A stretch of DNA of 64,000 nucleotides, taken from positions 43,015 through 107,014 of the forward strand of contig JABLTG010000050.1 of the NCBI GenBank assembly GCA_016618085.1, read 5' to 3'. The notes beneath the pieces were generated by a model that ran no database searches, was not told the origin of the DNA, and saw only the letters and a program-made list of their open reading frames with translations. Position numbers and translations under genes: made by a program. Below are positions 6,629-64,000 of the stretch, piece by piece. Position 1 is the stretch's first letter. Every line of letters starts with the position of its first letter. This stretch comes from Neovahlkampfia damariscottae (taxonomy: Eukaryota; Heterolobosea; Selenaionea; Neovahlkampfiida; Neovahlkampfiidae).

Positions 6629-6676
6629 TGATAATTGGTTTAAAAATGTGAACCAATCATCGTCACTTAAATTATT
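6629..6676. promoter_or_regulatory. Shared divergent promoter with two CCAAT/ATTGG elements
   Basis: Only 48 bp separate the two start codons. CCAAT at 6653-6657 lies 20-24 nt before the rightward phosphatase ATG. ATTGG at 6634-6638 reads as CCAAT on the minus strand, 6-10 nt before the leftward DUF1304 ATG. The role is inferred from recurrence of this pentamer before nearly all genes in the window. Confidence 0.55.
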
Positions 6677-59550: not shown

Positions 59551-62463
59551 TTATTCATCTACAGACTCATCTCTTTTTATAACTTCTAAAAATACATCCT
59601 CCAGTGATGTTTGACTTAAACCCCAATTTTTAATAACATTTTTTTCTCTCTTTTTTTTTTCAATTTCTGAAAACAAAAAGGAAATCTTTGAGTTTTCATT
59701 TGGAATATTAAATACTGAAATACCATAAAATTGATTGATTAATTTTGAATCTGGAATTAATTCATTGATAAATTTGAATATTTCATTTTCATTTTTAATA
59801 TCTAAATAATCATTATGAATTTATTAATTTATTACCATAAGAAATACTCAATCTATAACCTTCTCCAAATTTCTTTTTTAAATGAGTTGAATCACCAAGA
59901 CACATTAAATTACCATGTGACATAATTCCAATTCTATCAGATAAAATATCTGCTTCTTCAACTATTTGAAAAATTAAACAAAGAATATCAAACGTGAATG
60001 TGTTGTTAAAATAATACAATTATTTTCTTTAATATTTGAAATAATATCCCAAATTTCTCTTTTGGAAGTTGGATCTAATCCTCTAAAATGAATCAAATGT
60101 AAAAATAAATATAATCTTACGTGGTTGGTTCATCCAATAAAATCACTTTTGGATTTCCAACCAATGACATTGCAATACTTAATCTTCTTTTCATACCACC
60201 TGATAATTCAGAACTTAATTTATTTTGATGATCTTGTAAAGAAACTAAATTTAGAACATTATCAACATTCGTTTTTTCATTTCCAATTGGAATACCTCTT
60301 AATCTGGCATAAAAATATAAATGTTCAGAAACAGTTAAATCATTCCATTGAATATCTTTTTGAGGACATAATCCCAAAAATAAACGAATTTTATCCATAT
60401 CTGTATTTATATCATGATTATCAATCTTTGCATTTCCACTTGATGCAGAGAATAAACCACTTAAAATACTTAATGTAGTTGTTTCTTTCTTTTTAATAAT
60501 TTTTGTAATATAAACTTACTTCCTGCACCATTTGGTCCAAGTAAACAAAATACTTCACCTTTTTGAATAGAAAATGATAAATTATTAACAGCTTTAAAAC
60601 TTCCATAATACTTATTTAATCTATCAATAATAACCATTGAATTTGATAATTCACCTGATAATATTTTTTCTCTTTCTTCTTCAACATCACTATCATCTTT
60701 ATAACATTCTTCTTTGATTAATAATTCATCATTTGTTTTTCTCATATTTGAAATTAATTTCAAAAATGGTTTATAAATTGGTTTTAAACAATAAAAGTAT
60801 CCTTTTTTTAAACCCCATGCTTTTTTAAAATAAAAAATTGAATCAAAAATGAAATATTACTTTTTGGAAGTGTATCATCAAAATAGAATCCAATAATCAA
60901 ATACAAAATTGAATCAAAAATCATAAAAAATATACCCATTGTAATTGAATTAATTTCAAATAATGAAAAAATTGAAGGACAATTTCCTTTTTCACATGGT
61001 AATATTATACCTGATTCTAATGCAGAATGAAGTGGAAATGGCTTTTTTAAATATTAAAATAAATAAAATCAAACTAATATCCATAAAGTAAGTAAATAAT
61101 TTAAAATATTTGATCCAGGAAAATATCTAAGTGAAAGATAAACACCTAAAATTGGTTCAAATAAAGCAATAAAATATCCTAAAATGAGTGCAACTAAAAC
61201 AGATCTTGAAATTGAAGAAAGAAAAATTGAATAACTCTAGATTAGATATTAATACATTTTTTTTGAATTCATTACAATTAAAGTGAATCCCCAAATGAAT
61301 AAAATTAAAAGTGTAATTAAAGGATTTCCATATAAAGCAAATTTAAATTGAAATGCTAAACAAAGTAGAAATGTTGAAATTGCAATAAAAAGATAAATCA
61401 AATAATTAAATGTAAAAAATACAATCCAATAATATTGCATTTTTAAACCCATTAATTTCATCATTTCACGAATATTTTCCGTTTTTTCAAGTACAATTGT
61501 ATATAAAAATACTGGTAATGGAAGTAATAATAAAACAGGAACTATTTAAAAAATGAGAAGAAAAAAGTTATTTTTTTACTTGTTAAAAAACCACTAATCA
61601 TAACTTGTTTCAATTGAGATAATGCTGGTATTCCAAAAGTCCATGTTGGCATTTGATTTATACTTGCTTCAACTCCTGGTATATTTTTTGATTTCACTTT
61701 AAAGAGTTTTAATTTATTTTTTAAACAAACAATAAGCATTATTTAATATTGACATTAAAGCAGTTTGTATTAATTGTTTAGCTTGTTTAGAATCTAATGT
61801 TGACTGTCTATTTGGATCATCAGGTGAATCTAAAGTACGAAAATGATGATTAAAACAAGAACCACAATCAGCATCATGTGTAATTGTATATTTCAAATTG
61901 GTATCAGTAAAACTTTTAATATCATATGCACCTATTAATTGAGCCATTTCAAGTGATATTATTAAATTTTTTCTTTCAAAATCAATTTGAGCATACAGAT
62001 AATTATCAAGTTCATTTGTGTCGTTAAATTGTGAATTACTGAATGGAACATTTCCAAAATATTTAACTTTAACTTGATCAATATTTGATAATAAACCATA
62101 ACTTATTGAATGTTGAGACAAATTTCCGACTCGTTCTTTCAATTCAGGAGGTAAAGTTATAAAAAATGTTTTAGGTAAAATTAACCTAGTGGTATTATCT
62201 GATTTTGTATCTGAAGTTATATTTGAAACTCTTTTCATTTGATTCAATAAATCATATTTTGGTGTGATCATTAATCTTTCTTTTTGAAAAATATCAACAT
62301 TTAAAATTAAAGGTGATAAAATTGAAAATAAAAAACTAAGTGATAAAATTATAATTGGGTATGATACTAAACAAATTAAACTCTTCTTTTGTCTGAATTG
62401 AAGAATAAATTGTTTTCTAAATAAGCCTCTCAGTTGTTGTCTTGCTAAATGTAGAGACTCCAT
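59551..62463 (-). CDS. ABCA-type half ABC transporter
   Basis: Ten exons: 61731-62463, 61580-61696, 61276-61541, 61075-61236, 60861-61041, 60520-60819, 60121-60484, 59994-60082, 59836-59961, 59551-59801; 862 aa. The order is N-terminal TM, large extracytoplasmic loop (with CGSCFNHH), TM cluster and one NBD. The TM cluster starts with the ABCA signature EKTENIREMMKLMGLKMQYYW. The NBD has LGPNGAGKTTTLSILSG, the signature ELSGGMKRRLSIAM, Walker B VILLDEPTTGLDP, H-loop TTHSLEEAD, and the ABCA C-terminal WGLSQTSLEDVFLEV. This is the half-size ABCA layout known from plants and protists, probably a lipid exporter. The Walker A junction needs the second of two AG acceptors (intron 60485-60519). Confidence 0.92.
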
Positions 62464-62994
62464 TTGATTGGTTAAAAAAAAATTTTAATTGAACGTGTTT
62501 ATTCTTCAAATTTTGGGAAAGTTGTTTGTTTTTCACTATATTATCAAAGAACTTTCTTTGTTCATTTTCATCACAAGCAAATTTAATAATTACTTTAATT
62601 TGCTTTTTGAGTCTCCCAAGTCCGAAGGAATCCCAATCAATTTTAAATTAGAATTTTATTTTTTTGATATCTTTGCATGCCATTACCTCTTATTGGCAAT
62701 ACTCTTGTTGTTTCTTTTCCAATTCCTGTGTTTGACTCGAAACACAGGAAAGACAACAATTTTTCTTTTCGGAAAACATCTTTGAAACTTCTTCAGCTGC
62801 GTTGATATCCGTTCGGAGTAGAATTTGTTTTTTAAAATCTACGTGTTTAAAAATCCTCTGGTTTTATTGGATGATGTTTTCTTCAATTTTTGCTCTGCCA
62901 ATTTAACATCATTTATATAAAGAAAGAATAAATCAATTTATGAGAATAATTTATCTGCGCAACTTTTCCGTTCAATTTTGAGTCAACCAATCAA
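62464..62994. other. 531-bp spacer, one weak small ORF only
   Basis: Between the ABCA start and the next gene. On the minus strand an ATG at 62779 opens MFSEKKNCCLSCVSSQTQE; a 32-nt GT-AG intron (62671-62702) would end it as a 34-residue peptide. Support is weak. The long plus-strand ORF here is hydrophobic antisense of polar codons. A minus-strand CCAAT occurs near 62870. Confidence 0.3.
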
Positions 62995-63165
62995 ATGACA
63001 AAGCAAAAAGAAGAAAAAAAAGTTGAGAAAATAGAAAAAACCACAGTTTGGTTTGTTGTCAAAAACGTAGCTATTGTTGTGTTATTTGTAGGTGTATTTT
63101 CAATATTTTTTGATACTATCATCTCATTTTCACTGAAAAAACTTTTTGGAGGTGACGAAAAATAA
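62995..63165 (+). CDS. Small single-pass membrane protein
   Basis: 56 aa: a charged N-terminus of 17 residues (MTKQKEEKKVEKIEK), one TM helix (VAIVVLFVGVFSIFFDTI) and a short tail (SFSLKKLFGGDEK). The size resembles small subunits of membrane complexes such as Tom, Sec61 or V-ATPase assembly factors, but no diagnostic residue is recognised. CCAATCAA directly precedes the ATG (62987-62994), which supports it as a real gene although it is shorter than usual ORF cut-offs. Confidence 0.6.
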   Translation: MTKQKEEKKVEKIEKTTVWFVVKNVAIVVLFVGVFSIFFDTIISFSLKKLFGGDEK

Positions 63166-63375
63166 AATTAATTTTTTTTATTTGAAAACAATTTTTATTC
63201 TATTCTATTTGTAAGAGAAAAACAAAATGAAAAGAGAATGACATTATTTGAAAAAGTAATATATCCAACAATAAATGTGCTTTGGTATTAACAGAACAAT
63301 AGCGTTTAACAGTAATCGTTCTGCTGCAATCTTTCAGAATATAAGATGAAGAAACTTGCTGTCAAATTTGTTCCA

Positions 63376-63395
63376 TTTTTAGTTGAAACTAAAAA
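63376..63395. repeat. Short inverted repeat TTTTTAGTT-ga-AACTAAAAA
   Basis: Nine-base perfect arms around a 2-base centre, 50 bp upstream of the SEC-C ORF. It could be a transcript-end hairpin on either strand or chance in AT-rich DNA. Confidence 0.4.
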
Positions 63396-63446
63396 ATAAA
63401 TTAGACAGTTGATTGGTTGAATATTATAAACAATACTCAACGCAAA

Positions 63447-63590
63447 ATGAATCATTCGCACAGTAATCAATACTCACTCGAGAAAATATGCCCTTGTGGT
63501 TCAGAATCAAAGAAAAGTTACAAATATTGTTGCTACCGCTATCTTAAAACTGACTTTCTGTTCATTCTGATTAATCAGACCAGACATTAA
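63447..63590 (+). CDS. SEC-C zinc-motif ORF, apparently truncated
   Basis: 47 aa from an ATG preceded by ATTGG at 63412-63416 (standard promoter spacing). Residues 15-29 read CPCGSESKKSYKYCC, the SEC-C/YchJ-type zinc-binding motif CPCGS..K.YK.CC. The sequence then runs into LFILINQTRH and stops. SEC-C proteins normally continue into another domain (YchJ family: about 120-150 aa). The last 84 nt overlap the opposite-strand Fanzor ORF. I read this as the 5' stump of a host gene cut by the Fanzor element, although an unrecognised intron could also explain the loss of the rest. Confidence 0.55.
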   Translation: MNHSHSNQYSLEKICPCGSESKKSYKYCCYRYLKTDFLFILINQTRH

Positions 63591-64000
63591 AATCAAGGTT
63601 TCTTTCGGGATAGGACCGTCACCAGCAGTACTGGCAGTTTTTGGATTTCCAATAAAATTTTGTATATTCATCAGAAATATATTTCTTGGTCCATTATAAT
63701 CTCTTGGAAGAGAAAAATTACAATATTTACAATTGAAATAATCTTTTTTTCCAAGTTTCCAATCTATTTTTCCACATAATCCACATGTACAACTGGTATA
63801 ATGTTCTGAAACTTCATGTACTTGAACAGAATCTTTTTGAGCAAGATGTTTTAGTGTTTGACAAAATTGAAAATGAGACCAATGAAGCATTTTTCTCACT
63901 GTTGTACTATGAATTTTTCTTTCCCATTTTTTAATCATTCCTTTGACTGGAAATTTTGAAATCAAAATTTCATCATTATTTTCACAAAGATCTTTGGAAA
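63507..64000 (-). CDS. Fanzor (TnpB/OrfB-like) RNA-guided endonuclease, C-terminal part
   Basis: About 164 codons, open at the right edge, so the N-terminal and most RuvC parts are outside. What is seen: KKWERKIHSTTVRKMLHWSH (conserved helical region before the zinc ribbon), QVHEVSEHYTS, the zinc ribbon C-T-CGLCG ... FNCKYC, then PRDYNGPRNIFL with the third RuvC catalytic Asp (bacterial TnpB: DRDxNAAxNI; Fanzor: D-x-NGARNI). All four zinc cysteines and the Asp are intact, so the visible part is not decayed. Fanzor proteins are eukaryotic homologues of TnpB that cut DNA guided by an RNA encoded at the 3' end of their gene. Here that region would be about 63200-63560. The last ~20 residues may be host sequence read through. 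Confidence 0.85.
   Translation of the reverse strand, partial: SKDLCENNDEILISKFPVKGMIKKWERKIHSTTVRKMLHWSHFQFCQTLKHLAQKDSVQVHEVSEHYTSCTCGLCGKIDWKLGKKDYFNCKYCNFSLPRDYNGPRNIFLMNIQNFIGNPKTASTAGDGPIPKETLILMSGLINQNEQKVSFKIAVATIFVTFL

Follow-up and report, generated by a model that had tools for sequence, protein, structure and literature searches.

TnpB and Fanzor proteins are described as sharing a motif that comprises an aspartate, [TS][TS]xx, a C4 zinc finger, and RD within 5-50 residues (PMC3627910). According to PMC10711439, Fanzors and their bacterial "pro-Fanzor" kin are set apart from other TnpBs by two marks, namely a DPG motif at RuvC-I, about 120-160 residues upstream, and a RuvC-II glutamate located six residues before the zinc finger, hereafter called the alternative glutamate. 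The same account gives GG as the place of recombination in IS607 elements, and for ISXfa1 it counts the right-flanking nucleotide as part of the RNA scaffold. Within this family, Fanzor2 proteins are already known in protists (PMC3627910, PMC10432273, PMC10711439).

Here, we compare with these systems a gene end at the right edge of the window, by which we mean the whole stretch of 64,000 nucleotides analysed, whose G+C content is 26.9%. The list of open reading frames gives a minus-strand frame at 63507-63998 that is open over 163 codons and runs off the window edge. We assign it, from profiles, tree, and fold, as the C-terminal 163 codons and stop of a Fanzor2-type nuclease gene with its 5' part beyond the window's right edge. 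The earlier note had called it a Fanzor-type RNA-guided nuclease and had proposed a search against family profiles. Three profiles match the frame, all pointing to the TnpB family with E values from 3.1e-13 to 2.3e-18: the TNB zinc ribbon of Pfam (PF07282, E 3.1e-13, all 60 profile positions covered), the NCBIfam guided_TnpB profile (NF040570, E 2.6e-17), and PHROG 506 (E 2.3e-18). The NF040570 match spans positions 278-386 of 389, that is, the last 28% of the profile, and its 63 bits fall below the whole-protein cut-off of 100, as expected since the query is a C-terminal fragment. Among 25 distinct PDB sequences matched, the mimivirus TnpB-like protein L79 ranks first (9b0l, E 4.4e-13; titled 'Cryo-EM structure of Acanthamoeba polyphaga mimivirus Fanzor2 ternary complex'). 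At the level of sequence, these matches are far above chance and confirm that the frame is the end of a real TnpB/Fanzor-family gene.

The residue map places the two halves of the zinc ribbon at CGLCG (C72 and C75) and CKYC (C90 and C93), giving a C4 ribbon C72-x2-C75-x14-C90-x2-C93 at 63720-63785, and the catalytic aspartate of RuvC-III, D100, within RDYNGPRN at 63699-63701, as the alignments also indicate. The TnpB-like ribbon and RuvC-III motif noted earlier on this strand are thus all present. The RuvC-II glutamate had been expected upstream of the window, but is in fact inside it: E65 (63804-63806), an invariant alignment column, stands six residues ahead of C72, the first ribbon cysteine, at the alternative position of Fanzors and pro-Fanzors. 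The canonical TnpB glutamate is absent, its place being taken by S14 in a 40-row alignment where, for example, L025 has E, so the frame carries the Fanzor and pro-Fanzor mark of an alternative glutamate without a canonical one. The motif of Bao and Jurka (2013) can likewise be followed through T68 S69 C70 T71 C72, the four cysteines, and R99 D100, its first D falling beyond the window. The window therefore holds the acidic residues of RuvC-II and RuvC-III (E65 and D100) in addition to the zinc ribbon; the third, in the DPG of RuvC-I, would be expected at about 64,206-64,232, past the edge. The visible piece of 163 codons looks undamaged. No second copy was detected in the window outside the frame, where the best tblastn match to its translation has an E value of 0.94, and a tblastn search of the window minus the frame with five relatives and two proteins taken as IS607 TnpA reached at best E 0.18.

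Relatives were sought in genome contigs, the query being an alignment that combined the window with L79 and a fragment from one viral contig; this gave at least 592 pattern stretches, of which at least 97 were confirmed and 80 retained. Among the matches listed, the cyanobacterial loci L095 and L096 rank first, and 12 of the best 14 come from cyanobacteria, with a single Anabaenopsis genome accounting for six; the 12 are 40-49% identical to the window over all or part of the region. The other two lie on MAG contigs labelled Desulfatirhabdium (L097) and Thiotrichales (L108), for which mis-binning is possible. In 11 of the 17 alternative-glutamate loci listed, DPG occurs 134-142 residues before the glutamate, while the remaining six have cut frames (L098, L106, L112) or DLG (L123, L132, L144). 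A scan of viral contigs with the window frame as a single protein gave three pattern matches, none of which was confirmed. With a wider alignment, at least 600 stretches were obtained, of which at least 81 were confirmed and 80 retained, the closest new loci among the matches listed being L175-L188, with DPG in 12 of 14 (L187 has DCG and L185 a cut frame).

How distinctive the alternative glutamate is can be judged from 251 loci fetched by pattern, which are no random sample. Leaving out ribbons that miss a cysteine, the alternative place is occupied by E in 35, by P in 103, and by another residue in 37 of 175 distinct intact zinc ribbons. DPG occurs 100-165 residues upstream in the same frame for 8 of the 35 alternative-E ribbons vs 2 of the 140 others. 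The other 27 alternative-E ribbons, from viral contigs and haloarchaea, have cut frames or another DxG, so the alternative glutamate by itself is no proof of a Fanzor, and it is the tree and the similarity that carry this call.

The tree was built from 40 rows over the C-terminal 114 alignment columns: the window (117 residues), L79 (109 residues) as the sole Fanzor2 reference, and 38 loci hand-picked from the 251, comprising 22 pro-Fanzor-like loci, eight other alternative-glutamate loci, and eight without the alternative glutamate, with no Fanzor1 included. Seventeen of the 22 pro-Fanzor-like rows have DPG; L106 and L185 have cut frames, L187 has DCG, L075 has DQG, and the sequence seen of L108 does not cover RuvC-I. 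A branch with 98/97 support separates the window and these 22 rows, among them proteins of cyanobacteria and viral contigs, from the eight rows without the alternative glutamate and the eight other alternative-glutamate rows. L79 also falls outside, although the data do not reject a tree that keeps it inside (p-AU 0.54). The window row itself is long (1.68) and its placement within the clade is weakly supported (86/67).

Two observations concern the relatives themselves. In eight ORFs from viral contigs (L176, L177, L178, L183, L184, L186, L188, and L075), the zinc-ribbon cysteines are replaced (for example, TSKTVSWTGE...) while the alternative glutamate and the RuvC-III aspartate are kept; seven of these Fanzor2/pro-Fanzor-like ORFs have DPG and L075 has DQG, and in the tree all eight group with L181 and L185 at 100/99 support. 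Furthermore, 16 of 24 pro-Fanzor-like loci, near-copies counted, carry Y[CA]RVS[ST], which we take to be a serine-recombinase-type motif, in another frame that overlaps the 5' part of the nuclease or lies shortly upstream of it. At another locus examined (L001, 8-3195), our reading of the frames is of an IS607-like element with a pro-Fanzor-like gene, apparently split by a second IS607-like element with TnpA and TnpB frames of its own.

An AlphaFold2 model of the frame, computed from 18 sequences (the window and 17 loci), has a mean pLDDT of 69 and a pTM of 0.49. Confidence is 72-91 per ten-residue block over residues 1-110 and under 50 for residues 117-153 and 156-163. A Foldseek search of the PDB ranks the mimivirus Fanzor2 structure 9b0l first of 211 (E 2.7e-05), and Cas12f structures come next. 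TM-scores stay low (for 9b0l, 0.41 normalised to query length), the model being that of a fragment whose tail is disordered. Against the viral library, E is at most 0.001 for 42 models, headed by a Pandoravirus japonicus transposase, and the named matches are mostly giant-virus transposases, including those of Yasminevirus and Klosneuvirus, with some Campylobacter phage transposases lower. On its C-terminal evidence, the frame is Fanzor2 or close kin, a member of the clade of Fanzor2 and pro-Fanzors, as judged from the alternative glutamate, the grouping with pro-Fanzors (98/97), and the mimivirus Fanzor2 as the best solved structure. Profiles and fold thus bear out the family named in the earlier note, and the tree narrows it to the Fanzor2/pro-Fanzor clade.

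The right end of the element can be estimated in two ways. In six Anabaenopsis copies (L098, L100-L103, and L105), similarity extends over 153 nt, counted from the first base of the RuvC-III codon, beyond which the copies diverge; the same end motif is found at 153 nt in L104 and L106 and at 154 nt in L107, so that nine cyanobacterial loci end 153-154 nt after this codon. Counted from the RuvC-III codon of the window, 153 nt leads to 63549, beside a TTAA at 63544-63547. The length from RuvC-III to the end does vary, as the end motif lies at 126 nt in another cyanobacterial locus, L099. The second estimate comes from an A-rich stretch with ATCGG that recurs in several other relatives; 13 ends hand-picked from 24 loci could be aligned, their positions being set by the shared motif and not by comparison of copies. 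In the window, TTTTAAGATAGCGG ends at 63536, at one of the two CGG in the 301 bases searched. This candidate right end, GCGG, has no TnpA match accompanying it in the window by tblastn. The two estimates are 13 nt apart and, by length homology or by the GATAGCGG terminus with GG at 63536-63537, put the right end on the minus strand at about 63536-63549. The GG may hint that the element is IS607-like. Of 23 inverted-repeat pairs at 61500-64000, mostly AT-rich, none was taken as a terminal repeat.

With a right end at about 63536-63549, the scaffold of an omega-RNA would overlap the 3' end of the ORF, and this is probably, though not certainly, the arrangement here. The candidate scaffold occupies 63537-63650 on the minus strand, where the codons are predicted to be unfolded as protein and where G+C reaches 0.50 at 63601-63650, between RuvC-III and the right end. 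It includes a hairpin, TCTGA-TTAA-TCAGA, at 63566-63579 (minus strand) that is alignable with hairpins near the right ends of cyanobacterial pro-Fanzor elements, namely L100, L104, and L107. Across four sequences, a single pair out of the five is altered in both partners (U-A, C-G, G-C), a covariation that is not significant in this set of four (31 of 500 shuffles reach its score, and a partner slid by -3 scores equally). For the right ends of L100, L104, and L107, 16, 113, and 6 of 1000 randomised sequences, respectively, align as well as the tail does; for L097, L183, L185, and L095, which the tail does not match, the numbers are 365, 927, 986, and 489 of 1000, in seven comparisons without correction. 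The 141 nt at 63540-63680 fold with a z of -1.97, a value that 7 of 200 shuffles reach; z is -0.22, -0.59, and -0.27 for three further stretches. On these four values, folding by itself does not single out the RNA. Rfam returned one match on 62000-64000, a plastid element at E 0.74, far below its gathering score. The candidate guide would fall within 63515-63549 on the minus strand, as the first ~20 nt past the right end, and at about 63517-63535 if the right end is 63536; the latter stretch has no match elsewhere in the window with up to three mismatches. The earlier note had placed the guide RNA at 63200-63560, of which we retain some 11-25 bases of element together with a guide of ~20 nt; most of that region is rejected, as 63400-63540 shows no unusual fold (z -0.59) and 63447-63548 can be read as a host-gene start.

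This last reading, weak as its profile scores are, probably also overturns the earlier view that 63200-63560 has no other clear function. On the plus strand, an ATG at 63447 opens MNHSHSNQYSLEKICPCGSESKKSYKYCCYRYLK, and the frame continues into the antisense of the element up to a stop at 63590. The probable gene start at 63447-63548, MNHSHSNQYSLEKICPCGSESKKSYKYCC(YRYLK), resembles a SEC-C/YchJ-like N terminus, lies antisense to the element, and is apparently broken. The pattern C-x-C-G-S-x(4-10)-C-C, which was chosen after the sequence had been seen, is found a single time when all six frames of the window are scanned, and in none of 100 order-2 Markov simulations. With 30-35 codons visible, Pfam SEC-C gives E 0.9-5 (7.5-10 bits vs a cut-off of 20.4), and PRK01617, presumably the YchJ family, gives E 0.009-0.014 (15.7-16.4 bits vs 141 for the whole protein) over its N-terminal positions 3-22 or 3-23 of 154. 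The PRK01617 match depends on the length of the query, with E 0.014 for 35 residues and no match for 30, and Nop10p competes at E 0.01-0.015. As no score reaches its cut-off, we label the frame YchJ-like, not YchJ, and have moderate confidence that it represents a host gene interrupted by insertion of the element. Elsewhere in the window, AACCAATCA occurs 11 times vs 1.86 expected, a number reached in 0 of 100 shuffles, for example at 62465-62473 (minus strand), 62985-62993 (plus strand), and 6651-6659 (plus strand). An ATG follows within 17 nt in 8 of the 11 copies, some of which are perhaps no gene starts, and this suggests a core-promoter motif of the source genome.

Taken together, we are confident that the window ends in the C-terminal third of a Fanzor2 gene in a mobile element of an AT-rich protist genome, with the omega-RNA and flank as inferred parts. 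How such an element might work can be proposed from the mechanism model for characterised Fanzors and TnpBs, as given in PMC10432273 and PMC11423790. The Fanzor2 protein would bind an omega-RNA transcribed from the right end of the element, whose 3' extension would copy the flank, within about 63515-63549, as guide. The guide would then direct double-strand cleavage of an unoccupied site, where by analogy the DNA would match the flank-derived guide and adjoin a transposon-adjacent motif, and repair after cleavage would copy or keep the element. More tentatively, the element may sit in the first codons of the SEC-C/YchJ-like host gene, in which case, given this position, that gene would be the target of the guide. 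The most specific version of this proposal, that of a live IS607-type Fanzor2 whose frame runs through its own omega-RNA scaffold and on into the flank, in the first codons of a YchJ-like gene whose intact allele is cut by the guide so that the element homes, strikes us as distinctly unlikely in its entirety. If true, the element would home into a YchJ-like SEC-C gene and so act, in a protist, as a natural gene drive does.

Other readings of the same locus differ chiefly in the vehicle and in whether the gene is alive. It is quite conceivable, while short of probable, that we are dealing with Fanzor2* in the sense in which PMC10711439 defines that category, carried not by an IS607 element but by a eukaryotic DNA transposon of the ordinary kind, which has terminal repeats and a target duplication. 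In its favour, length homology with the Anabaenopsis copies leads to 63549, the neighbouring TTAA could be a target duplication, and the YchJ-like match requires residues to ~63548; in contrast, GATAGCGG at 63536 resembles the 13 aligned ATCGG ends of relatives, hand-picked as these are, and many relatives look IS607-like by the recombinase motif in another frame (16 of 24 loci). We regard it as rather unlikely that the gene is a dead Fanzor2 derivative, truncated or decaying, with only its C-terminal part sound. Its 163 codons are free of stops in 27% G+C sequence, and E65, C72/C75/C90/C93, and D100 are all retained, even though the visible sequence stops at 64000, the terminal branch is long, and usually conserved places differ (NGPRN for NGARN and TSCTC for TSKTC).

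Two further readings would place the protein outside Fanzor2. Fanzor1 proteins have the D-[TS][TS]xx-C4-RD motif too (PMC3627910), but none of the 25 PDB sequences with E no higher than 10 carries a Fanzor1 name, and the Spizellomyces and Parasitella Fanzors come only at ranks 31, 32, and 35 by fold, with E 0.16 or worse, among the best 50 of the 211 Foldseek matches, which makes this assignment very improbable. A canonical TnpB or Cas12f-like protein, present through prokaryotic contamination or recent transfer, is the least probable reading of all: PF07282 is common to TnpB and Cas12f, and Cas12f structures are among the matches, but the alternative glutamate is there and the canonical one is missing, the window lies apart from the eight tree rows without the alternative glutamate, and the gene lies on a contig that also has a RIO2 kinase and gene models divided among several frames, by introns on our reading.

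Within the reading that we prefer, a Fanzor2 gene in a protist element, the gene end is well supported and ordinary for its family, whose occurrence in protists is established. Because this copy lies beside a recognisable stretch of host gene, it yields a candidate right end and, from that, a predicted guide and target, and its interest comes mainly from this testable prediction, which a small-RNA library could check directly.

Compared with named systems, the locus has most in common with Fanzor2 and the pro-Fanzors. Canonical TnpB of IS200/IS605 and IS607 elements and Cas12f have a RuvC and a TNB zinc-ribbon domain, as the window does, but by the description in PMC10711439 their glutamate lies ~50 residues before the ribbon vs six in the window, and the alternative place, E in the window, is mostly proline in the fetched loci (103 of the 175 distinct ribbons). 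The mimivirus Fanzor2 (L79, 9b0l) shares the alternative glutamate, the C4 ribbon, and RD-x-N, likewise lacks the canonical glutamate, and is 34% identical to the window over 105 columns of the fold alignment; it is virus-borne and outside the supported branch, whereas the window contig looks cellular and eukaryotic. NlovFz2 of Naegleria lovaniensis, likened here by its description in PMC10432273 only, is also a Fanzor2 of a free-living protist. The cyanobacterial pro-Fanzors with DPG and the alternative glutamate, for example those of Anabaenopsis elenkinii (L100) and Chamaesiphon (L096), are bacterial, are 40-49% identical in the C-terminal region, have the alternative glutamate as in the window, and in some cases have an alignable right-end hairpin. 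In the Anabaenopsis copies, the stop codon precedes the right end (123 vs 153 nt after the RuvC-III codon), whereas the frame in the window runs through the right end and into the flank.
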